NCBI RefSeq assembly: GCF_028768465.1
Contig: NZ_CP118225.1
Location: forward strand, 6,987,001 to 7,051,000
Reading direction: 5' to 3'
DNA from: Rhodopirellula sp. P2
GTDB taxonomy: Bacteria > Planctomycetota > Planctomycetia > Pirellulales > Pirellulaceae
DNA length: 64,000 bases
The position numbers and the translations under genes were made by a program. Positions 45,841-55,824 of this stretch are shown piece by piece. The notes beneath the pieces are model-generated. The model was not told where the DNA came from and did no database searches. It worked only from the letters and a program-made list of their open reading frames with translations. Position 1 is the stretch's first letter. Each line of letters begins with the position of its first letter.

Positions 45841-45861
45841 GGTTGCACCCCTGGTTGCACC
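45841..45861 (+). promoter_or_regulatory. Candidate integrase arm-type site, older element copy
   Basis: Direct repeat GGTTGCACC-CCT-GGTTGCACC, the diverged counterpart of the pair at 55602-55622. It lies in the older integrase remnant. Confidence 0.4.
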
Positions 45862-45946
45862 TGATGCAGTCCGAGAGGGTCAAAACGGTCCGTTTCTGTC
45901 CCTTCCTGACCAAACTGCGGACGATCGAGCCGAGCCGACCGAACAC

Positions 45947-45982
45947 GAAAAAACCCCGCAAAACACAGGGTTTTGCGGGGTT
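45947..45982 (-). terminator. Duplicate of the tRNA-Val terminator
   Basis: Hairpin with 13-bp stem AACCCCGCAAAAC/GTTTTGCGGGGTT, with an A-run on the plus strand giving a T-run after the stem on the minus strand. Same hairpin as at 55707-55742. It has no tRNA in front of it now. Confidence 0.75.
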
Positions 45983-45990
45983 TTCGATGA

Positions 45991-46035
45991 TGGGCGATAC
46001 AGAACTCGAATCTGTGACCTCCACGATGTCAACGT
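45991..46035. repeat. Left attachment repeat (att)
   Basis: A 45-base sequence identical to 55751-55795, equal to the 3' half of tRNA-Val (anticodon loop to acceptor end). It is the distal boundary of the integrated element. Confidence 0.92.
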
Positions 46036-46253
46036 CCGAGCAGATTGCGAAAAAACCCCAAAAAACCATAGCGAATCGCGGTGCTGCGGAACGCTTGCAC
46101 CAATGCTTGCACCAGATTGAAAAGTGCGACGAACGTTCGGTCGCTTCGGTGTTGGTCGATGCCGTGGCTCGGGCGTTGGGGTCGGATGCGGTCGAACGGT
46201 TGCTGACGGTGCTGGACGAACAAGCCGAAGCGGTCGCCAATCGGAACGACTGA
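46036..46253 (+). other. Alternative 3' end of the integrase gene (attP-joined tail)
   Basis: An open frame in phase with the integrase once the two att copies are joined: 72 codons from SEQIAKKPQKTIANR to a stop at 46251-46253, with an amphipathic helical end (SVASVLVDAVARALGSDAVE). In the present integrated form it is separated from its gene by the whole element and fused instead to the older integrase remnant. Reading is by frame arithmetic: 55795 joins 46036. Confidence 0.7.
46093..46113 (+). promoter_or_regulatory. Candidate integrase arm-type site, left side
   Basis: Direct pair GCTTGCACC-AAT-GCTTGCACC, 57 bases inside the left att. An identical pair sits 128 bases before the right att core, in the same orientation. 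Such paired repeats beside att are typical of integrase arm-type sites. Confidence 0.5.
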
Positions 46254-47061
46254 ATCGGCGGGGCGTACGAACTCTCTCTCGACAGTCTGGGCTGCTGTAT
46301 CGCGGTACTGAGCCGTGAACGCTGGGGAGGACCCAAAGGGCGTAGGTACTACTTGTGCAAGCCGACACGGCGATGCCAAAGGGAACCGCCGCGATACGGA
46401 ACAGATTGGACAGACACCGCTGCGGGTCCTTCCCTGGATGAATTGCGAAGGCATCGACCGCTGTGCTGCTGAAATCTTGCACAGCCACCGAGCAAACAAG
46501 CATCACCACCACCCCCTGCCGTCATTGGGTCCCTCTGAGCGTTTCGATTCGGTTGCGGTAGAATTCAGCCCAGGGACCGCTGAACACAGTCCGTCCGGTC
46601 AATGTTCACGGGGGTCAGGGGGGCGATGCGCGGTGGCGGGTCCTTCCGAATGGGGTGGCCTGTCGGTGCGGGTCAATCTCCGAACGCTTCTCGCTGGCAT
46701 CGACGCAGAAAAACTAGACCCTCCCCCTCCTCCTTTCGTCGAATGCAGGGGGGGGGCGGTCGAAAACTCAAGCCAACGCTTTCCACATGCCGCTTCCCCA
46801 GGCGTGCGCATTCTGTGGCAAAAAACAAGGTTTTGGCGGCCAACCGAATGCAGGGGGGGGGCCGCTGATTTCTGACGCTGAATCGACAGCGACCTATCGC
46901 CCCCCGAATCCGCCGGCGCATGCAGCAAAATGATTGAATTGCCGTTCGGGGTAGGTTCTGGCAAAATCACCACAGTGGGTCTGGTCGCCCACTCACTCTG
47001 CCGGTGCCTGACCCGCGCCAGCATCACACGGTAAGCGTTCGACGGAACGCTGCACGATTCC
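46254..47061. other. Non-coding left region of the element
   Basis: About 800 bases with overlapping open frames on both strands but no recognised protein. GC-rich, with poly-pyrimidine and poly-G tracts. It may hold promoters or attachment functions. Confidence 0.4.
46740..46861 (+). repeat. Two G9 tracts with shared flank
   Basis: The phrase CGAATGCA followed by nine G occurs at 46740-46756 and again at about 46845-46861, 105 bases apart. Long homopolymers of this type can slip or fold as G-rich structures. Confidence 0.7.
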
Positions 47062-47094
47062 AACGGTCGACGCATGTTCTCTGCGTCGACCGTT
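47062..47094. promoter_or_regulatory. 13-bp perfect inverted repeat
   Basis: Stem AACGGTCGACGCA/TGCGTCGACCGTT with a 7-base loop, 30 bases before the likely start of the ORFan. It could be a protein-binding palindrome, or a hairpin in the leader. There is no T-run, so a plain terminator is unlikely. Confidence 0.6.
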
Positions 47095-47123
47095 CGGGAT
47101 CGGCCTTCCCTGGATGGAGAACA

Positions 47124-49100
47124 GTGTTGAGTTATCGAAGTCTGTGTCGTATGGCGGATGAGGAATTCGCGTTACTGATTGCCGATTCCAAAACAGTAAC
47201 CGAGCAATTTGCAACAGTCCTAGCCAATTGTTTCGTGCGTAGCGTCAACGTAATTTTCGCTGCTCAAAGCGGGAACAGCGAAGAGTTTATACGCAACGCT
47301 TGCTTCCTCCAACGTGGACGCAAGCAATTGAAGAAACTGCAATCCAAAGAACTTTGGGACCGATGGCCGAAGTCAAAAACACCAGTAGCGTTTGGGCAGT
47401 ACTTCCGAACAGCACGGTCCGCCGCAGCGGTTGCATACAGGTTCGTTGAAGGGCAATTTGCAGAAATTGAGTTTGCAAGACTGACCGCATTCCCAAACGA
47501 CTGCATCGACGAACGAGCCACTGGCGACCTAGCAGCATGGTCGACCGCCTTCACAGCCCAGGCTAAATCCCAGCGACGCGACCTTTTCGACTGGAAACCG
47601 TGGGCCCTTCACCAAGACCGGGACATCCTGTGCGCAAAAATTGAGACCGAGTGGGAAGAATGCGAGGCTGCTATGTCACATCCAACAGAACAACTGACGG
47701 GTTCGAACCTGAGCGATGCAATCGACGCGGCCTATCTCGCTGCGGGAGAACTTGCGGTGACGATGATGCAAGTGTCGTTGTTTCAGCATCGCCAAATCAC
47801 GATGCTGCTTGCGACACCTGAAACCGACGACGAACAGCAAGACCAAGAATTGAGAGCGGGGCATGTTGCAAACTTTCGCCTTGACCTTGGGAAGGCGCAG
47901 GATGATTTGGTTTCTTTGCTACAAACGCTGGAACAACAACACCGAGACTTCATTCCCAAATTCATGCCTTTGTCCGACTTACTGGACTACAGCCGAAAAG
48001 ACCTTGCCGAACTACCAAAGGTGCAACTCGCAAACACGGAAAGCATCGACATACGTGGCCCGATGAACGACCTTGCTTTCCACCTGGAAGGATGGGGCAA
48101 ACAGATGAAGCATTGCCTACGGTTTGGCGATGCTTGCGATGCACGGTCCGCTGAGAACGTTCGGTGCATCAAGCTTGCGAAATCATGCCCCTACAACGAA
48201 GACGCTCACACAGCGTTGCAGCAACGAATTGCAGACGAAAAGTCGCGGGTGATGCAAAACTGCTTGCCGTTCCTCCAATACAAAGGCAAGCCACAATCGA
48301 GCGAGACGAACAGAACGACAGAAACGGTCAAAATTCACATCGACGATACGGTGCGGAAGTTCCGCAACATTTGCGACCGTCTGAACGAATTCTGTCGTCG
48401 GCTGAAACATCCGGAGAGATTTGATTTTCAATCATTCCAGGCAATGGCGGCGATACTGCAAAGCCTTCAAGAAGAACTGCGATTGGATGCGACTTGCAAG
48501 GTATTGATTGTGAACCCGCCTCGCACCGTTCGCGTTCAACTGACCGATGCTTACGCCAGTATTCGCAAGTTGCGCTACATCGAGTTTGATGACCGCGGCA
48601 TTGTTGACAACGAAGAACTCTCATTTGAATTGAATGAAGTATTCCAGGCGGCATTCCTTTGGTACCAAGCAAAACTTGAATCGGCTGAAACATTCAGAAA
48701 TGAACGAATCAGATCAAAGCCCCCTGGGAAAAGCCAACCCCCACTCAACACAACGGCAACGCAGTCCGTTGGCGACGCATCGCTCCATGAGGAAGCTCGG
48801 CGACTTTTCACGTCAGAGATTAGCAAGCTGAGTAACCCTGAATGGGAACGCATTGATCGACAGATGATAGGCAGAGCGAAAAATGACGGTTGCGCACCAA
48901 GAGGGGAACCTATTTTCTTCGAGTCTTTGGGCGGAGTCTTATTTCAACAGAAACGCACCTACGTGTTCATCGAAAAGCCACGTTCAAAAACTGACCTTCG
49001 TCCGACATTCAGAGCGTTGTGTGCGTCACAGTCAGAAAAAATCGGCAAAAAAGTTGCGTCAGTACTGCAACAGAAAGTCACGCCAGTTCCCAAAAAATAG
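47124..49100 (+). CDS. Large ORFan cargo protein
   Basis: A protein of about 658 residues without recognised domains, signal or membrane segments. It is mainly helical with many Gln/Glu/Lys and coiled-coil-like stretches (ELRAGHVANFRLDLGKAQDD, VSLLQTLEQQHRDF). The open frame begins at 47004, but a palindrome at 47062-47094 and a GGAGA box at 47116-47120 point to GTG 47124 (or TTG 47127, ATG 47151). Lower GC than the replication genes suggests separate ancestry. It is the only long non-replication gene of the element, so it is the candidate cargo. Confidence 0.6.
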   Translation: MLSYRSLCRMADEEFALLIADSKTVTEQFATVLANCFVRSVNVIFAAQSGNSEEFIRNACFLQRGRKQLKKLQSKELWDRWPKSKTPVAFGQYFRTARSAAAVAYRFVEGQFAEIEFARLTAFPNDCIDERATGDLAAWSTAFTAQAKSQRRDLFDWKPWALHQDRDILCAKIETEWEECEAAMSHPTEQLTGSNLSDAIDAAYLAAGELAVTMMQVSLFQHRQITMLLATPETDDEQQDQELRAGHVANFRLDLGKAQDDLVSLLQTLEQQHRDFIPKFMPLSDLLDYSRKDLAELPKVQLANTESIDIRGPMNDLAFHLEGWGKQMKHCLRFGDACDARSAENVRCIKLAKSCPYNEDAHTALQQRIADEKSRVMQNCLPFLQYKGKPQSSETNRTTETVKIHIDDTVRKFRNICDRLNEFCRRLKHPERFDFQSFQAMAAILQSLQEELRLDATCKVLIVNPPRTVRVQLTDAYASIRKLRYIEFDDRGIVDNEELSFELNEVFQAAFLWYQAKLESAETFRNERIRSKPPGKSQPPLNTTATQSVGDASLHEEARRLFTSEISKLSNPEWERIDRQMIGRAKNDGCAPRGEPIFFESLGGVLFQQKRTYVFIEKPRSKTDLRPTFRALCASQSEKIGKKVASVLQQKVTPVPKK

Positions 49101-49231: not shown

Positions 49232-49480
49232 GTGAACACTTCTCAAACGGTCGCTTCCGCCATTCAGGACGGCAAGCGACGGGCGATGATGTCGGTCGAC
49301 GATGTCGCGAATGAACTTGGTTGTTCATCCCGACACGTCCGAAGGTTGATTGACCGCGGGAAACTTCCGCGCCCCATTCGGCTCGGGTCATTGGTCCGCA
49401 TTCTTCGAGCTGACTTTGACCACTGGTTGCAAGCTGGCTGCCCCAACCTCGGTTCTGCATCGAGGGGGCGGCGGTCATGA
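49232..49480 (+). CDS. AlpA/excisionase-like HTH protein
   Basis: An 82-residue protein with a MerR-like helix-turn-helix: MSVDDVANELGCSSRHVRRL, then DRGKLPRPIRLGSLVRILRADFDHWL. This is the pattern of AlpA/Xis-type regulators that direct excision or activate element genes. It starts with GTG at 49232 after AAAGG. Its stop overlaps the next start (ATGA). Confidence 0.8.
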   Translation: MNTSQTVASAIQDGKRRAMMSVDDVANELGCSSRHVRRLIDRGKLPRPIRLGSLVRILRADFDHWLQAGCPNLGSASRGRRS

Positions 49481-49947
49481 TTCAGCAAGAATTATTCGAT
49501 GCGGGGGTATCGGTTTGCTCCCTCTTTGTTGGCTCCCCTTTCGAGATGCGGAGCATTGGCGACCGCAACCGCGCTGCACAGTTGGCGCTACTGACGGTGC
49601 TGCTGAAAAGCCGAAGCGGCCAAGCCACCACCGACGACATCGTTCGGGATCGGAACAGGCGACACGACGGTGACGGGAAATGGCTCGGGCCGAAAATCAG
49701 CGAATTGTCCCGCGATGGATTGATTCGCCAGTGTGGAGCCAAACGTAGCGACCGCAAAACGCGAAAAGGCGGTTCGGTTTGGACCTGGGAAATTGTCGAC
49801 CGCCAAGCGGTCATTCTGAAAGTGAAGCGGCTGCGTCGGTCGCTCTCTTTCCATCAAAAAACCGATTCAACCGCGGCAACGGCTGAATCGGCTTCGAAAA
49901 CGTCAACCACAAAGCAAGGGGAAACAAGCAATGGGCAAACTGTCTGA
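49477..49947 (+). CDS. Hypothetical winged-helix-like protein
   Basis: A 156-residue basic protein. The middle (AQLALLTVLLKSRSGQATTDDIV, GPKISELSRDGLIRQCG, SVWTWEIV) has the spacing of a winged-helix DNA-binding domain; the C-terminal 40 residues are Ser/Thr/Lys rich and disordered. It overlaps its neighbours on both sides, within the replication operon. No firm family. Confidence 0.6.
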   Translation: MIQQELFDAGVSVCSLFVGSPFEMRSIGDRNRAAQLALLTVLLKSRSGQATTDDIVRDRNRRHDGDGKWLGPKISELSRDGLIRQCGAKRSDRKTRKGGSVWTWEIVDRQAVILKVKRLRRSLSFHQKTDSTAATAESASKTSTTKQGETSNGQTV

Positions 49948-50506
49948 CATTCTACGCGAACAGGGTTCGCTCGACACGATTAAATCGGCCTGGGATTCGA
50001 CCGCCGCGGCGGGGGACTTCGATTGCTTGCCGAAGGGCGAGTACATCGCAGACATCGTGAAAGGCGATGCCATCGAGTCGAGAACGAAAGGGACCCCCGG
50101 TTATCGACTGACGTTCGAAGTCGCGGAAGGGGAACACGCTGGTTCGCGGTTCTGGCATGAATGCTGGTTCACCGAAGCGGCGATGTCTCGCACCAAACGC
50201 GACTTGGAAAAGCTGGGCGTCTCGGACTTGCAACAATTGGAACGACCGTTGCCGGCGGTGTTCCGTTGCAACGTCAAGCTGAGTATCCGCCGCGATGACG
50301 ACGGCAACGAATCCAACCGGGTGCGGCGGTTCGATGTCATGGAAGTGATTCAACCAACACCGGACGCATTCGCGCCGGAATCCGAACCGATGACCGCCGC
50401 GGCGGGTGATTCGGGGAACGGTGACGATGGCGGCGCGACGGTGAATGATTTGTTCGACGATGCCGCGAACGATGACGACGACCAAAGTGAAAGGGAGTCG
50501 GCATAG
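49931..50506 (+). CDS. DUF669-like single-strand-binding-type protein
   Basis: A 191-residue protein with the DUF669 pattern: LPKGEYIADIVKGDAIESRT, GYRLTFEVAEGEHAGSRFWHECWFTEAAMSRTKRDL, RCNVKLSIRRDD. It ends in a long acidic tail (DLFDDAANDDDDQSERESA) like those of single-stranded DNA-binding proteins. In phages DUF669 genes sit with recombination and replication genes, as here, directly before the primase. The stop overlaps the primase GTG. Confidence 0.8.
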   Translation: MGKLSDILREQGSLDTIKSAWDSTAAAGDFDCLPKGEYIADIVKGDAIESRTKGTPGYRLTFEVAEGEHAGSRFWHECWFTEAAMSRTKRDLEKLGVSDLQQLERPLPAVFRCNVKLSIRRDDDGNESNRVRRFDVMEVIQPTPDAFAPESEPMTAAAGDSGNGDDGGATVNDLFDDAANDDDDQSERESA

Positions 50507-51474
50507 TGAACACTGCGATGCCGCTCGGGTATCGCATTGTCGGACCGTGTAGCCGCGAACGCAAAGTCGTCCAGTACGACCGAGCGTTCGCGGCCTACGC
50601 GGCCTGCGATGACCTGGCACAAATTGATTCGGAAGGGTTCCTATCGCCTTTCCAATACGACAACGAAATTTTGACCCGTCGCATCGACACGGCGGGAACC
50701 TTGGATGTCCGCGGTTTTGATGGCGGATGCTGGTCGCGGTTCATTTGGTTCGACATCGACCGTGAAGGCGACATTGATTCAGCAACACAGGATGCGCGGC
50801 GACTGGCGATGATGCTGGTCGAACGCTATCGCATCGACGAATCCGATCTGCTGCTGTTCTTCTCGGGCTCCAAAGGGTTCCACATCGGTTTGCCGACATC
50901 GTTGTTCGGTGCGGAACCGTCCATCGAATTCGGTTCGATTGTTCGGAAGTTGGCGGAAGGGTTGACCGCTTCGGTTCGTGTCGTCATTGACCCGTCCGTC
51001 TACGGCAAGGTGCAACCGCTTCGGGCACCGAACAGCCGACACGGCAAGACAGGGCGTCACAAACGCATCCTGACGTTCGACGAATTGATGCATCGCAAAC
51101 CGAGCTCCATCGTGACGGCATCGGCTGAGCCGCTGGAATTTGATTTGCCAACTGAACCGGACATCGACCAACGAGCGGTCGACGACTGGCACGCCGCGGT
51201 CGCAGCGATGAAACGCAAAGCCGAAGCGGTGAAAGTCATCGCGGCGGACCGTTCGGAACTGAACCGTTCGACACTGGAATTCATCCAAGACGGCGCGGAC
51301 CAAGGCGACCGGCATCGGTTGCTGTATTCCGCCGCGGCCAACCTTGCCGAATTCGGTTGTCCAACACGTTTGGCTCATGCGTTGTTGACCGAGGCGGCAT
51401 TGGATAGCGGGCTGACGCCAACCGATGTTCGTCGTGCAATCGACAACGCATTGTCGAAAGGTGGTGCGGCATGA
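50506..51474 (+). CDS. AEP-type primase (PrimPol-like)
   Basis: A 322-residue archaeo-eukaryotic primase fold protein: catalytic WFDIDRE (residues 81-87), SGSKGFHIGLP (120-130), and VIDPSVYGKVQPLRAPNSRHGKTGRHK (160-186) with the third-motif-type Asp and Arg. It should synthesise primers for element replication. It starts with GTG overlapping the upstream stop and is followed with a four-base overlap by the helicase. Confidence 0.85.
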   Translation: MNTAMPLGYRIVGPCSRERKVVQYDRAFAAYAACDDLAQIDSEGFLSPFQYDNEILTRRIDTAGTLDVRGFDGGCWSRFIWFDIDREGDIDSATQDARRLAMMLVERYRIDESDLLLFFSGSKGFHIGLPTSLFGAEPSIEFGSIVRKLAEGLTASVRVVIDPSVYGKVQPLRAPNSRHGKTGRHKRILTFDELMHRKPSSIVTASAEPLEFDLPTEPDIDQRAVDDWHAAVAAMKRKAEAVKVIAADRSELNRSTLEFIQDGADQGDRHRLLYSAAANLAEFGCPTRLAHALLTEAALDSGLTPTDVRRAIDNALSKGGAA

Positions 51475-52391
51475 CGGGGCGGCAATCATATGTCCGGTGC
51501 GACCGATTGTTCGATGACTGGCACGATGATGTCTTGCACGGCAAACCGCCGCGGCGGTTCCACATCGGCGACGGTTTGGACCACATCCGATTTGGTCCTG
51601 GAATGGTCGCATTGCTGGGCGGTTCACCTGGGATGGGCAAGACGGCATTTGTCATGCAGTCCGTTGTCACAGCAATGTCTGCTGACGATTCGTTGCGGGT
51701 TTGCGTGGCGAATGTCGAGATGCCACCGGAACGGCTGTTAGAACGGCAACTGAGCCGCCTGAGCGATGTTTCATTGACTGACATTCAGGACCGGACGTTG
51801 AACGACCGACAGCGTGAACGCTTGTCGGATGCATTCGACACGCTGGACGACATCGCGGACCGTTTGGTGTTTGTTCGTTCGCCAATGTCGCTCGAAAACG
51901 TGGCGGACGCTGCGGATTCCATCGACGTGGATTTGATCGTGTTGGACTACATCCAACGGATTCGGCCTGTCGGCAAGCATGACGACAAACGGGGGTCGGT
52001 CGATGCGACGATGGATTCGATTCGTCGGTTTGCCAATGCAGGGTGCTGCGTCATTGCGTTGTCCGCGGTGGGACGTTCGAAGGATGCCAAGGGACGTTCC
52101 AGCTACTCGGGCGACGGTTTGTCGCTGGCATCGTTTCGGGAGTCATCCGAACTCGAATACGGCGCGGACGATGCCTATCTGATTGTCCCTGCGAAGAACT
52201 CGGACGACGACGCGGACGATGGTGTGGTGGACGTTGAACTACGTCAACTGAAATCACGCTATGGCAAGCCGACCGACATCGAACTGACGTTCGACCGAAC
52301 ACGGCAACGGTTCGAACTGACCGAACCGCCGATGTCAGAAGAACACCAACGACTGCGGGATTCCATCGCAGGATTGTGGGGTGATGAATGA
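51471..52391 (+). CDS. DnaB-like replicative helicase
   Basis: A 306-residue RecA-fold ATPase lacking the DnaB N-terminal domain. Walker A GGSPGMGKTAF (50-60), NVEMPPERLLERQLSRLSDV, Walker B LIVLDYIQRI near 147-156, and the C-terminal LRQLKSRYGKPTDIELTFD typical of DnaB_C. It works with the primase upstream to replicate the element. Start and stop both overlap their neighbours by four bases. Confidence 0.87.
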   Translation: MTGRQSYVRCDRLFDDWHDDVLHGKPPRRFHIGDGLDHIRFGPGMVALLGGSPGMGKTAFVMQSVVTAMSADDSLRVCVANVEMPPERLLERQLSRLSDVSLTDIQDRTLNDRQRERLSDAFDTLDDIADRLVFVRSPMSLENVADAADSIDVDLIVLDYIQRIRPVGKHDDKRGSVDATMDSIRRFANAGCCVIALSAVGRSKDAKGRSSYSGDGLSLASFRESSELEYGADDAYLIVPAKNSDDDADDGVVDVELRQLKSRYGKPTDIELTFDRTRQRFELTEPPMSEEHQRLRDSIAGLWGDE

Positions 52392-52720
52392 CACGACCAA
52401 AACGCAAGCCGAAGCGACAAACGGCTGACCGCTTCGCGGTGTTGAATGCGTTCGTCGACTTCTCGCTGCGTGAACTGACGCGACCTGATTTGGCGGTTTG
52501 GATGGTGCTGTATCGCGACACCCGAAACGGAGTCGCCAAGACAGGGCAGACCGACATCGCCAAGCGAGCAGGAATCAGCGAACGAACCGTTCGTCGCTCC
52601 ATCAAGCGACTGTGCGATGTCGGGCTGCTGCTGGTTGTTCATCGCGGCGGGATTCGCTCGGGACCATCGTCCTATCGAGTGTTCCCAATGTCACAGGCTC
52701 GATTCGAGTCACTTCCCTAA
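52388..52720 (+). CDS. Winged-helix replication/regulatory protein
   Basis: A 110-residue basic protein with a winged helix: LTRPDLAVWMVLYRDTRNGVAKTGQTDIAKRAGISERTVRRSIKRLCDVGLLLVVHRG. It is similar in layout to phage replication-initiation or O-like helper proteins. ATGA overlap with the helicase gene. Two 48-bp repeats begin at its stop codon. Confidence 0.75.
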   Translation: MTRPKRKPKRQTADRFAVLNAFVDFSLRELTRPDLAVWMVLYRDTRNGVAKTGQTDIAKRAGISERTVRRSIKRLCDVGLLLVVHRGGIRSGPSSYRVFPMSQARFESLP

Positions 52721-52809
52721 CCGGACGCTGCGGGTCGGTTTCTGCGGTCACAGCTATGTCCGCATTAACCGGACGCTGCGGGTCAAAACAAGCGGACACA
52801 GCTATGTCC
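52718..52809 (+). repeat. Two 48-bp tandem iteron-like repeats
   Basis: The boxes TAACCGGACGCTGCGGGTC (52718-52736, 52766-52784) and CACAGCTATGTCC (52749-52761, 52797-52809) each occur twice with a period of 48 bases. They lie directly after the replication genes: a candidate origin or regulator-binding array. Confidence 0.75.
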
Positions 52810-52833
52810 TCTATCCCATAAAGGGACCATAAG

Positions 52834-52870
52834 GGTTTGCCCCTTTTGGTCCGCTGGACAGGGGCAAACC
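52834..52870. promoter_or_regulatory. 11-bp inverted repeat
   Basis: Arms GGTTTGCCCCT (52834-52844) and AGGGGCAAACC (52860-52870) around a 15-base spacer. A possible terminator or part of the origin region; no T-run follows. Confidence 0.6.
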
Positions 52871-52890
52871 AACAACGAACGGCGGACACG

Positions 52891-53103
52891 ATGACGAACG
52901 CACCCACCACCACCGATTTGCAATCGCTCTGGATGCAACCAGCGACGATGCAATTCCAACCAGATGTCGACGAAGGCAAGCGGCGATGCAATCACGCTGA
53001 CCGCTCTGCGTGGGTCGATTCGAAGGACGGTTCGCGGCACGGGTGGATTCGGACAACGTGTTCGCGATGCGGCGGATTTGTCGGCTATCGGCCAAGATTT
53101 TAA
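52891..53103 (+). CDS. Small zinc-binding-type protein
   Basis: A 70-residue protein from ATG 52891 with a compact Cys/His set (CNHAD, then [13 protein letters not shown]) that could hold one zinc. Small proteins of this type are frequent in phages and islands. No ribosome site of note; a longer frame from 52837 is less likely because it would overlap the inverted repeat. Confidence 0.55.
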
Positions 53104-53138
53104 CAATCCAAACAAACGCCAAAATGATCGAACTCGAA

Positions 53139-53176
53139 TTGCCTTTGCTATCGCTGTGTTGTAAAGTAAATACAAC
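53139..53176 (+). promoter_or_regulatory. Promoter and operator of the XRE/ImmA pair
   Basis: -35-like TTGCCT (53139-53144) and -10-like TAAAGT (53162-53167) with a 17-base spacer. A palindrome GTTGTA-n7-TACAAC (53158-53176) covers the -10 box and is a good candidate operator for self-repression by the XRE protein. GGAG lies before the ATG at 53197. Confidence 0.55.
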
Positions 53177-53196
53177 AACCCATCGGAGAGCAAGAA

Positions 53197-53565
53197 ATGA
53201 CACAATTTGGAAAACTGTTGAAACAGTACCGCCTAGCTGGCGGATGGTCACTGCGGGAATTTTGCAGCCTAAACGGATTTGATGCCGGAAATTACAGCAA
53301 GCTGGAACGCGGCCGGTTCGCTGCGCCGGACTCGGACGAACGGGTCCAAGCCTACGCGACCGCGCTAGGATTGAAGGAAGGCGGGGACGAATGGTTCACG
53401 CTATTTGACGCCGCTGCTGCTGAACGTGGACGGTTGCCTGCCGATCTTTTGACCGACGCCGAAACCATTGAGAAATTACCTGCGTTGTTCCGAACAATTC
53501 GCAGCGAACAACAGACCGGCGGAATAGACCTGAACGAACTAGTTGAGAGGATTCGCAAAAGCTGA
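53197..53565 (+). CDS. XRE-family repressor
   Basis: A 122-residue regulator with an N-terminal Cro/CI-type helix-turn-helix (LKQYRLAGGWSLREFCSLNG, then DAGNYSKLERGR) and a helical C-terminal part. It is paired with an ImmA-type protease by a one-base overlap, the layout of ImmR/ImmA switches that control ICE and phage-like elements. It probably represses the element's excision and replication genes. Confidence 0.85.
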   Translation: MTQFGKLLKQYRLAGGWSLREFCSLNGFDAGNYSKLERGRFAAPDSDERVQAYATALGLKEGGDEWFTLFDAAAAERGRLPADLLTDAETIEKLPALFRTIRSEQQTGGIDLNELVERIRKS

Positions 53566-54176
53566 TGGAAGTTCCGTATTTGTCCTATGACCAACTAAAA
53601 ACCGAAGCGGCTCGGGTGCGATCCCAGAGCAAGTATGCCAACCAGTTTCCGGTGGCTATCGAAATCATCGTAGAACGCGATTACGAAATGGACGTCGTTC
53701 CAATTCGCGGTTTGCAAACGGCTTTCAACATCGATGCGTTCATCTCTCAGGACATGCAGACGATCTCTGTAGATGAATTTGTCTTGGAGAATCGCCTCAA
53801 TCGATATCGGTTCACGTTGGCTCATGAACTCGGGCACCGGGTTTTGCACAGCGACATTTTGCAAACCATGAAATTTGATTCGATTGACGATTGGAAGTCG
53901 CAGCTTACGGAATTCCCCGAACGCGAATACGGATTTTTGGAATACCAAGCCAACACGTTTGCGAATTGCTTACTGGTTCCGGCAGATGAACTGGACCGTC
54001 GGTTTGTTCAGGCGATTGACCAAATCAAAACTGCCGGACTGAACCCTGCCGACTATCCCAATGAATGTTTGGACTCGATTGCTACGGGACTCGGCAAGCA
54101 ATTTGAAGTTAGCCGGGATGCGATTCTGAACCGGCTGACAAATAAGCAGGAAGATTTTGAATCACGACTTCGCTGA
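53565..54176 (+). CDS. ImmA/IrrE-family metallopeptidase
   Basis: A 203-residue protease with zinc motif LAHELGHRVLH (HELGH at 87-91) and EYQANTFANCLLVP supplying further family residues. ImmA proteases cleave their partner repressor on DNA damage or signals, inducing the element. It directly follows the XRE gene and is 16 bases ahead of the integrase gene, so repressor cleavage and integration are likely linked. Confidence 0.9.
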   Translation: MEVPYLSYDQLKTEAARVRSQSKYANQFPVAIEIIVERDYEMDVVPIRGLQTAFNIDAFISQDMQTISVDEFVLENRLNRYRFTLAHELGHRVLHSDILQTMKFDSIDDWKSQLTEFPEREYGFLEYQANTFANCLLVPADELDRRFVQAIDQIKTAGLNPADYPNECLDSIATGLGKQFEVSRDAILNRLTNKQEDFESRLR

Positions 54177-54192
54177 ACCGGGATGAATCACG

Positions 54193-55818
54193 ATGGCAAC
54201 GCTTTTCAAGAAGCAATACACGAAACCGATTCCCGACGGCGCACAAATTATCGCTCGGACGGTGAAAGGCGAATCCAAACGATTCGCTCAATGGACCGAC
54301 CGCCGCGGCAAGAAGCGAACCGCGGAACTGACCGCCAACGGCAAACGAATCAAAGCCGAAGCGACCACCTGGACCGCGAAGTACCGAGACGGGGAAGGCC
54401 TGGTTTGCGAAGTCGCGACAGGATGTCGGCAGAAGGACGCAGCGAATGCTGTACTGGCTGACCTGCTGAAACGCGCTGAACACGTTAAATCGAACATTCT
54501 GTCCCCTGAACAGGACCGCATCGCGGATCATGCCGCGGTGCCGATCACAGAACACATCGAGGCGTTTTTGGAATACCAACGACGCAAGGGAACGCACCCC
54601 GACCGAGTCCAGCACTACGCCACGAAGCTGAACGAAACCGCGGCAACCTGCCATTTCAGGACGTTGCGTGATTTGTCGGTCGACCGCCTGGAAAGCTGGC
54701 TGGGCGAACAACGCACCAACGAACGCGACATGGGGGCGGCGGTTTACAACGGCTATCGCGAATCCTGGCTCGCATTCGGCAATTGGTGCATCGGCAAACG
54801 AGTCAACGGAAAGCAAACGCATTTCAACGGTGAAAAGCGGTTGCTGACCAATCCGTTCGATGGAATGGCAAAGCTGGACGAAGAAGCAGAGCGACGACGG
54901 CGGGCGAGGGCATTGACCGACGACGAACTGACGCGGCTGCTGGACGCGGCGCGACGCAGACCGCTGGAACATGCGATGACGGTTTACCGAGGACCGAACA
55001 AAGGCAAGCTGCTGGCGAAGGTTCCCGACGAACGAAAGGAAAAGCTGATTGCGTTGGGGAACGAACGGGCGTTGATTTACAAAACCGCCGTCCTGACGGG
55101 GCTGCGACTGAATGAACTGCGAACACTGGAATGCCGCGATTTGTCGCTGGGCGATTTGGGGTTCATCCGGTTACGACATTCCAACGAGAAAAGCCGCAAA
55201 GGTTCAACGCTGCCGGTCCGGTCCGATTTGGTCGCGGAACTGCGGGACTGGATTGCGGACAAGCAACCCGGCGACCGGGTATTCGTCGTTCCCGATGGGC
55301 TGCTGCGGATCATGGACCGCGATTTGAAAGCGGCGGGCATCCCCAAGAAGGACGCGGACGGCTGCGTGGTTCACGTTCATGCGTTGCGACATTCGTTCGC
55401 CTCGCACCTGTCGAAAGCGGGCGTTGCCCCTCGCATCGCCCAAGCTGCAATGCGACATAGCAACATCCGTTTGACGATGGGGACGTACACCGACGAACGA
55501 TTGCTGGACACAGCCGAAGCTATCGAGACGCTTTCGATGTTCCGTTCGGCAGATATTCCCAACGAATCAGGGGATTCGGACGACAAAACCGAGCCACGAA
55601 AGCTTGCACCAATGCTTGCACCAAATTCAGTCCAGGACAGCAAAAACAGTCCTTTTGAGTCCCTTTCTGACCAATCCGACGACGACGCTGAAAACGGTGC
55701 GGACACAAAAAAACCCCGCAAAACACAGGGTTTTGCGGGGTTCTTGGGAGTGGGCGATACAGAACTCGAATCTGTGACCTCCACGATGTCAACGTGGCGC
55801 TCTAACCAACTGAGCTAA
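54193..55818 (+). CDS. Tyrosine recombinase integrase (tRNA-embedded 3' end)
   Basis: A 541-residue phage-type integrase. It has an SAM-like core-binding domain (EHIEAFLEYQRRKG around 120), then a catalytic domain with GLRLNELR (Arg305), HALRHSF (His396, Arg399), RHSN (His422) and TYTDERL (Tyr432). About 100 residues follow the catalytic domain, Ser/Asp rich with little homology. Its codons 520-534 lie inside the 45-bp att repeat, and the last seven residues (WRSNQLS) are read from the antisense of the tRNA 5' half. The gene also spells the tRNA terminator. In the excised circle the tail would be replaced. Confidence 0.93.
   Translation: MATLFKKQYTKPIPDGAQIIARTVKGESKRFAQWTDRRGKKRTAELTANGKRIKAEATTWTAKYRDGEGLVCEVATGCRQKDAANAVLADLLKRAEHVKSNILSPEQDRIADHAAVPITEHIEAFLEYQRRKGTHPDRVQHYATKLNETAATCHFRTLRDLSVDRLESWLGEQRTNERDMGAAVYNGYRESWLAFGNWCIGKRVNGKQTHFNGEKRLLTNPFDGMAKLDEEAERRRRARALTDDELTRLLDAARRRPLEHAMTVYRGPNKGKLLAKVPDERKEKLIALGNERALIYKTAVLTGLRLNELRTLECRDLSLGDLGFIRLRHSNEKSRKGSTLPVRSDLVAELRDWIADKQPGDRVFVVPDGLLRIMDRDLKAAGIPKKDADGCVVHVHALRHSFASHLSKAGVAPRIAQAAMRHSNIRLTMGTYTDERLLDTAEAIETLSMFRSADIPNESGDSDDKTEPRKLAPMLAPNSVQDSKNSPFESLSDQSDDDAENGADTKKPRKTQGFAGFLGVGDTELESVTSTMSTWRSNQLS
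55602..55622 (+). promoter_or_regulatory. Candidate integrase arm-type site, right side
   Basis: Direct pair GCTTGCACC-AAT-GCTTGCACC inside the integrase gene, 128 bases from the att core; identical to 46093-46113. Confidence 0.5.
55707..55742 (-). terminator. Intrinsic terminator of tRNA-Val
   Basis: 13-bp stem AACCCCGCAAAAC/GTTTTGCGGGGTT, loop of five, followed on the minus strand by a T-run. It begins about 10 bases past the tRNA 3' end and lies in the integrase coding sequence (TKKPRKTQGFAG). Confidence 0.85.
55751..55795. repeat. Right attachment repeat (att)
   Basis: 45 bases identical to 45991-46035, covering the tRNA-Val 3' half and restoring the intact tRNA on insertion. Confidence 0.92.
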
Positions 55819-55824
55819 TCGCCC
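55752..55824 (-). tRNA. tRNA-Val (anticodon GAC)
   Basis: A 73-base cloverleaf on the minus strand: acceptor GGGCGAT/ATCGCCC, D-stem GCTC/GAGC, anticodon stem CCACG/CGTGG with loop TTGACAT (anticodon GAC), T-arm ACAGA-TTCGAGT-TCTGT. CCA is not encoded. It is the integration site of the element. Confidence 0.95.

Follow-up and report, generated by a model that had tools for sequence, protein, structure and literature searches.

Our preferred reading, to which we give a probability of roughly three in four, is that an integrated element of Rhodopirellula sp. P2 has its whole attP inside its own integrase gene, that integration cuts a C-terminal tail from the enzyme, and that the tailed form performs integration while loss of the tail lowers or redirects activity. 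This reading draws on the geometry of the sequence, on an in-frame tail kept in relatives, on repeats flanking the att core and on an intact integrase gene in one assembly. The window, by which we mean the whole 64,000-nucleotide stretch analysed, comes from a 7.29-Mb one-contig genome.

The integrase gene in its integrated form (54193..55818, + strand) encodes 541 aa plus a stop, the ORF ending WRSNQLS. Its product matches Pfam Phage_integrase (E 2e-17, residues 293-435 of 541) and a PHROG integrase (3.3e-31), which identifies it as a tyrosine recombinase; NCBIfam gave no family above cut-off for this integrase or for that of locus L146. The ORF terminates within a tRNA-Val(gac) gene on the opposite strand (55750..55824, − strand, called by ARAGORN), the integration target, and its last seven residues are encoded by the tRNA gene beyond the att core. 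The core is a 45-bp exact repeat whose right copy (55751..55795, +) is the 3' part of tRNA-Val, antisense in the integrase reading, and whose left copy lies at 45991..46035 (+). Allowing ≤3 mismatches, a 29-bp piece of the core occurs nowhere in the window but at these two sites (100 shuffles gave a mean of 0), and the element that the repeats bound is 9,760 bp.

When 55795 is joined to 46036, as in the excised circle, 54193-55794 supplies 534 codons, a Ser codon (T+CC) spans the junction, and the frame reaches a TGA at 46251-46253. The tail coding sequence after the core (46036..46253, +) thus has 72 codons including the junction codon, plus the stop, for 606 aa in all. The sequence-only reading had described the 541-residue form, with its stop in the tRNA gene past the 45-bp core, and this was confirmed to the base; its arithmetic for the joined form, 72 codons in the same frame to 46253 and 606 residues, was also right. 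By sequence, integration in the window is predicted to exchange 72 residues for 7. Under a first-order Markov model, an open joined frame in the window element alone has P = 0.17, so that the window by itself is insufficient for the claim; the open frame becomes convincing because relatives are open in the integrase frame too, with homologous in-frame tails.

Our family search covered 241 genomes, with an integrase match at E <= 1e-60 in 32 (the window's own included) and a tail-profile match in 24. A contig scan gave three integrase loci, one of them close (L075, on a Rubripirellula sp. contig), which is the same stretch as L134. We examined 42 stretches (40 fetched, the window and L075); 34 had a usable integrase C-terminal half, 33 of these being distinct given the L075/L134 duplication. 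Outside these counts are L158, which had no match, and L159-L164 and L168, which hold integrase 3' ends only. At 29 of the 33 distinct loci, 48-78 nt of the integrase ORF lie over the 3' part of a tRNA gene (Val, Pro, Ala, Leu or Gly) on the opposite strand; the ORFs lacking such overlap are those of L140, L145, L146 and L149. At L140 (G641:C159:53000-72900) the integrase reads the core in the integrase frame and continues into unrelated sequence; neither a tRNA (within the fetched stretches) nor a recognisable tail was seen there, and we omitted the locus, perhaps a rearranged or differently placed copy, from the counts. Among 29 more distant loci from a sample of the phylum, 11 integrase ORFs run into or through a tRNA gene. 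Viral contigs and plasmids each yielded one relative at 25% identity, with no close relative and no circle, and phages yielded no relative at 1e-10 and no circle.

For 13 elements the far end carries an exact repeat, at least 26 nt long, that overlaps the tRNA. In every one of these 13, the integrated frame stops 2-23 nt beyond the core and the joined frame runs on past it for 60-77 codons; none of the 26 alternative frames reaches 60 codons. Taken singly, these elements have P values of 0.05 to 0.29 under the same Markov model. Core identity linked five more pairs of ends; in three pairs the two ends are on separate contigs, and in one (L151/L210) the match is only 22 nt long. Four of the five are open, with tails of 67-107 aa. 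L165 is an additional in-frame case, with a 77-aa tail and a 17-nt exact core. The joined frame is therefore open in 18 of the 19 elements with both ends found, the tails spanning 60-107 aa. Relatives whose integrase stops before the core, which the sequence-only reading had named as evidence against it, were absent from these 18; the one exception is L145/L208, where the integrase ends 18 nt short of the tRNA and the peptide expected from the core lies in another frame, so that the linker frame looks broken. Two further pairings were rejected as having no common core, L205 with L156 (15 nt shared, within an arm repeat) and L209 with L149 (10 nt shared).

The tRNA core is read in three different frames across the family, giving peptides of the TELESVTSTMST, RTRICDLHDVN and DLNLRPLRPE types. 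Mapping the phase onto the integrase tree (with L147 and L146 set by hand) requires at least three changes of core phase for the 15 rows with a homologous in-frame tail, and at least five for the 18 rows whose tails are open. One tRNA-Val is targeted both by the window's group and by L133, L135, L137 and L139; the two sets read it in different frames, and the tail frame follows in both. This keeping of the tail frame across phase changes is new as far as our searches show.

The tails also look protein-like. Leave-one-out tail profiles matched 14 of 17 tails in the integrase frame (E <= 7.1e-6; 2.2e-23 for the window tail, also in the integrase frame) and missed those of L147, L152 and L154, though their frames are open. 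Comparing all 91 pairs of the 14 tails past the P' arm, we found a pooled pS of 0.63 against a pN of 0.49 in the integrase frame, with pS > pN in 83 of the 91 pairs; in the shifted frames the difference is gone (0.53/0.52 and 0.44/0.55). Six disjoint close pairs gave pS > pN in three, equality in one and a lower pS in two, the window-L129 pair among the latter (0.10 vs 0.12). Because only three of these six pairs have pS > pN, the constraint on the tail appears modest or weak, and part of its protein conservation, the LH..LH pattern, coincides with DNA repeats. AlphaFold2, given the tail alone without an alignment, predicted three helices (best model mean pLDDT 78.6, five models 62-79); a PDB fold search with this model returned six matches, the best at E 5.9, none of which we counted.

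Repeats flank the core on both sides. In the window a 22-nt word, GCTTGCACCAATGCTTGCACCA, occurs in the P arm at 55602..55623 (+), inside the integrase CDS, and again in the P' arm at 46093..46114 (+), inside the tail CDS, where 12-nt repeats were also detected. A word of 11-30 nt is common to both flanks of the core in 17 of 18 joined elements, one copy about 172-200 nt ahead of the core's end and the other 52-77 nt beyond it; most elements have it as two repeats with 12-nt spacing, and the word varies between elements (GCTTGCACC, GGTTGCACC, GTTGCCCC). L145/L208 has no word common to both sides of its core. Arm-type sites around a core, in the same layout, are described for cluster J mycobacteriophages in available text of PMC3706429. 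We take the planctomycete repeats as putative arm-type integrase sites, and because they flank the core on either side, the integrase gene appears to contain the whole of attP. The integrase CDS also holds a hairpin (55709..55745, −; inverted repeat 94%, with T's following on the minus strand) that probably doubles as the tRNA terminator on the other strand. It encodes KKPRKTQGFAGF in the window integrase, similar KKPxKTxGFxGF peptides recur in relatives, and a hairpin is noted at window 45950-45984 too.

A natural gene joining integrase, core and tail is present in genome G492, whose contig C516 (86,727 bp; L146, L197) encodes all three as one 582-aa gene, whose tail gave a profile match of 4e-10 when two sequences were searched; no tRNA was found on this contig. 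Contig C38 of the same genome shares its last 77 nt with C516 (the 46-nt core with 29 nt ahead of it and 2 nt behind) and apart from these continues into tRNA-Val(gac). As k = 77 is a usual assembler setting, we read the overlap as an assembly fork at that k, which would mean that both junctions were present in the G492 sample. The intact gene may belong to a circle or to a tandem pair, which would look alike here; such an assembled full-length integrase-core-tail form is new as far as our searches show. Together with the family comparison, this gene supports the sequence-only proposal that integration replaces the C-terminus of the integrase. In the window itself, the decayed 3' end of another family integrase lies left of the left core (45843..45990, +) and its frame runs uninterrupted across the core and on into the tail; we regard it as a remnant of an earlier or tandem element. 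In G373, a one-contig genome, a more distant integrase ORF (L231/L232, G373:C1:4200500-4237900) crosses a tRNA-Pro core; another copy of the core, differing at 4 of 39 positions, lies in the tRNA-Pro gene 13.3 kb farther on, much as a tandem array would look.

Elsewhere in the element, a gene at 49232..49480 (+) encodes an HTH_17 excisionase-like protein (Pfam 6e-13; PHROG excisionase 4.5e-11) that is a candidate directionality factor. Among nine other window genes tested, it alone was matched in all 13 elements (the window being one of them). Window 49931-54176 holds DUF669/SSB-like, primase-like, DnaB-like, replication-initiator-like, repressor and M78 peptidase genes, and a 698-aa ORF at window 47004-49100 has no Pfam or PHROGs match. 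With genes of replication type and neither capsid nor terminase among the ten element proteins scanned (Pfam, PHROGs), the element looks like a self-replicating satellite or a plasmid-like element.

Our preferred reading would work as follows. The 9.76-kb element would carry attP (P arm, core and P' arm, about 280 bp) within the 3' part of its integrase gene, which in the excised circle would encode the 606-aa enzyme with a helical tail at its C-terminus. By recombining with tRNA-Val the element would restore the tRNA and cut the integrase gene at the core, so that the integrated copy encodes 541 aa, with the catalytic domain whole and seven tRNA-derived residues in place of the tail. Both forms would be translated. 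The tailed form would be the integration enzyme, and excision would most likely be left to the short form with the HTH protein, tail loss and this excisionase-like protein together lowering or redirecting activity once the element is integrated. The tail swap may thereby act as a switch. We advance only tentatively the fuller proposal that recombination state selects the isoform, the tailed enzyme of the circle integrating and the tail-less one being biased toward excision or dormancy, with selection holding the tail to the integrase frame while target tRNA and phase changed repeatedly; if so, a neighbouring element in a tandem array could supply the tail. The choice of tyrosine integrases between integration and excision is usually credited to a separate directionality factor; under our proposal the DNA state itself would rewrite the enzyme.

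An objection to our preferred reading is that the arrangement is a compact module with no graded switch: the tail would be needed for any activity, the integrated copy would be dead, and excision would depend on a whole integrase supplied by a circle, by a tandem neighbour or by some other element. Such a scheme has been proposed for archaeal suicidal integrases, as described in part of PMC8371274, and tandem or remnant arrangements joining an integrase to its neighbour's left end do occur. We nevertheless consider it unlikely, since the Pfam catalytic match ends whole at residue 435, about 85 residues ahead of the core (which starts from about residue 520), so that the integrated enzyme may still act, and the shortened Mx8 enzyme is described, in the account available in PMC4701971, as less active, not dead. 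It is more doubtful still that the tail is translated and the swap has no consequence, attP overlapping the gene for compactness only and both forms behaving alike. The weak constraint in close pairs and the three tails without recognisable homology would fit this, but an unneeded tail would not require the frame to be kept in 18 of 19 elements and across changes of core phase. Very improbable is that the open frame is a by-product, conservation of the P' arm DNA reflecting its role as a binding site, with chance in G+C-rich sequence leaving the remainder open: single elements can be open by chance at the P values of the Markov model, and the most conserved tail residues fall on the repeats, but no control frame is as long, homology and synonymous excess extend past the arm, and a natural intact gene exists.

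The sequence-only reading was aware of no other case of this tail swap. A swap was already described for IntP of the Myxococcus phage Mx8, originally, it is said, in reports of 1996 (Tojo) and 1999 (Magrini) that we know via later papers. The Mx8 gene contains ARSTGLEPVLLGS, which has the look of sequence derived from a tRNA, and a long tail comes after it. From the parts of the literature available to us, Mx8 IntP is, like the window integrase, a tyrosine integrase with attP in its own gene and a C-terminus replaced on integration: 112 C-terminal residues are exchanged for 13, giving a less active product (PMC4701971), with specificity changed and the enzyme not inactivated (PMC6070905), and the Mx8 and SSV integrases both extend across attP (PMC4383910). 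The same partial sources liken to Mx8 the serine integrases of ICEs in rumA (PMC4701971, PMC4383910, PMC6070905); in these streptococcal elements att lies inside the integrase gene, which gains another C-terminus after excision (PMC4701971), and they differ from the window element in having a serine integrase and in targeting rumA, not a tRNA gene. Archaeal suicidal integrases (SSV1, pTN3, pT26-2) share with the window a recombination site within the integrase gene, according to the portion of PMC8371274 available; in those the gene split puts the catalytic part in a separate fragment, whereas here the catalytic domain stays with the N-terminal part. We accordingly rejected a split of the archaeal (SSV) type, because the catalytic match at 293-435 stays whole.

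The idea of a tail swap is thus not new, and the planctomycete family is, as far as our searches show; our literature search, with subscription journals mostly outside its coverage, found no planctomycete case. The Mx8 integrase has weak similarity to that of the window (BLASTP E 0.003 over 99 residues), and its tail scores 6.6 bits against the planctomycete tail profile, where the best shuffle scores 6.2, which we do not count as homology. The planctomycete tail, moderately conserved and with no clear relation to that of Mx8, is likewise new as far as we could search. Mx8 is moreover a phage, unlike the window element with its lack of capsid or terminase among ten proteins. The family shows that a gene can stay in frame across a tRNA-derived att core, and as a bacterial family with many natural variants it would make the role of the tail directly testable; the tail kept in frame in relatives suggests a built-in switch like that of Mx8.
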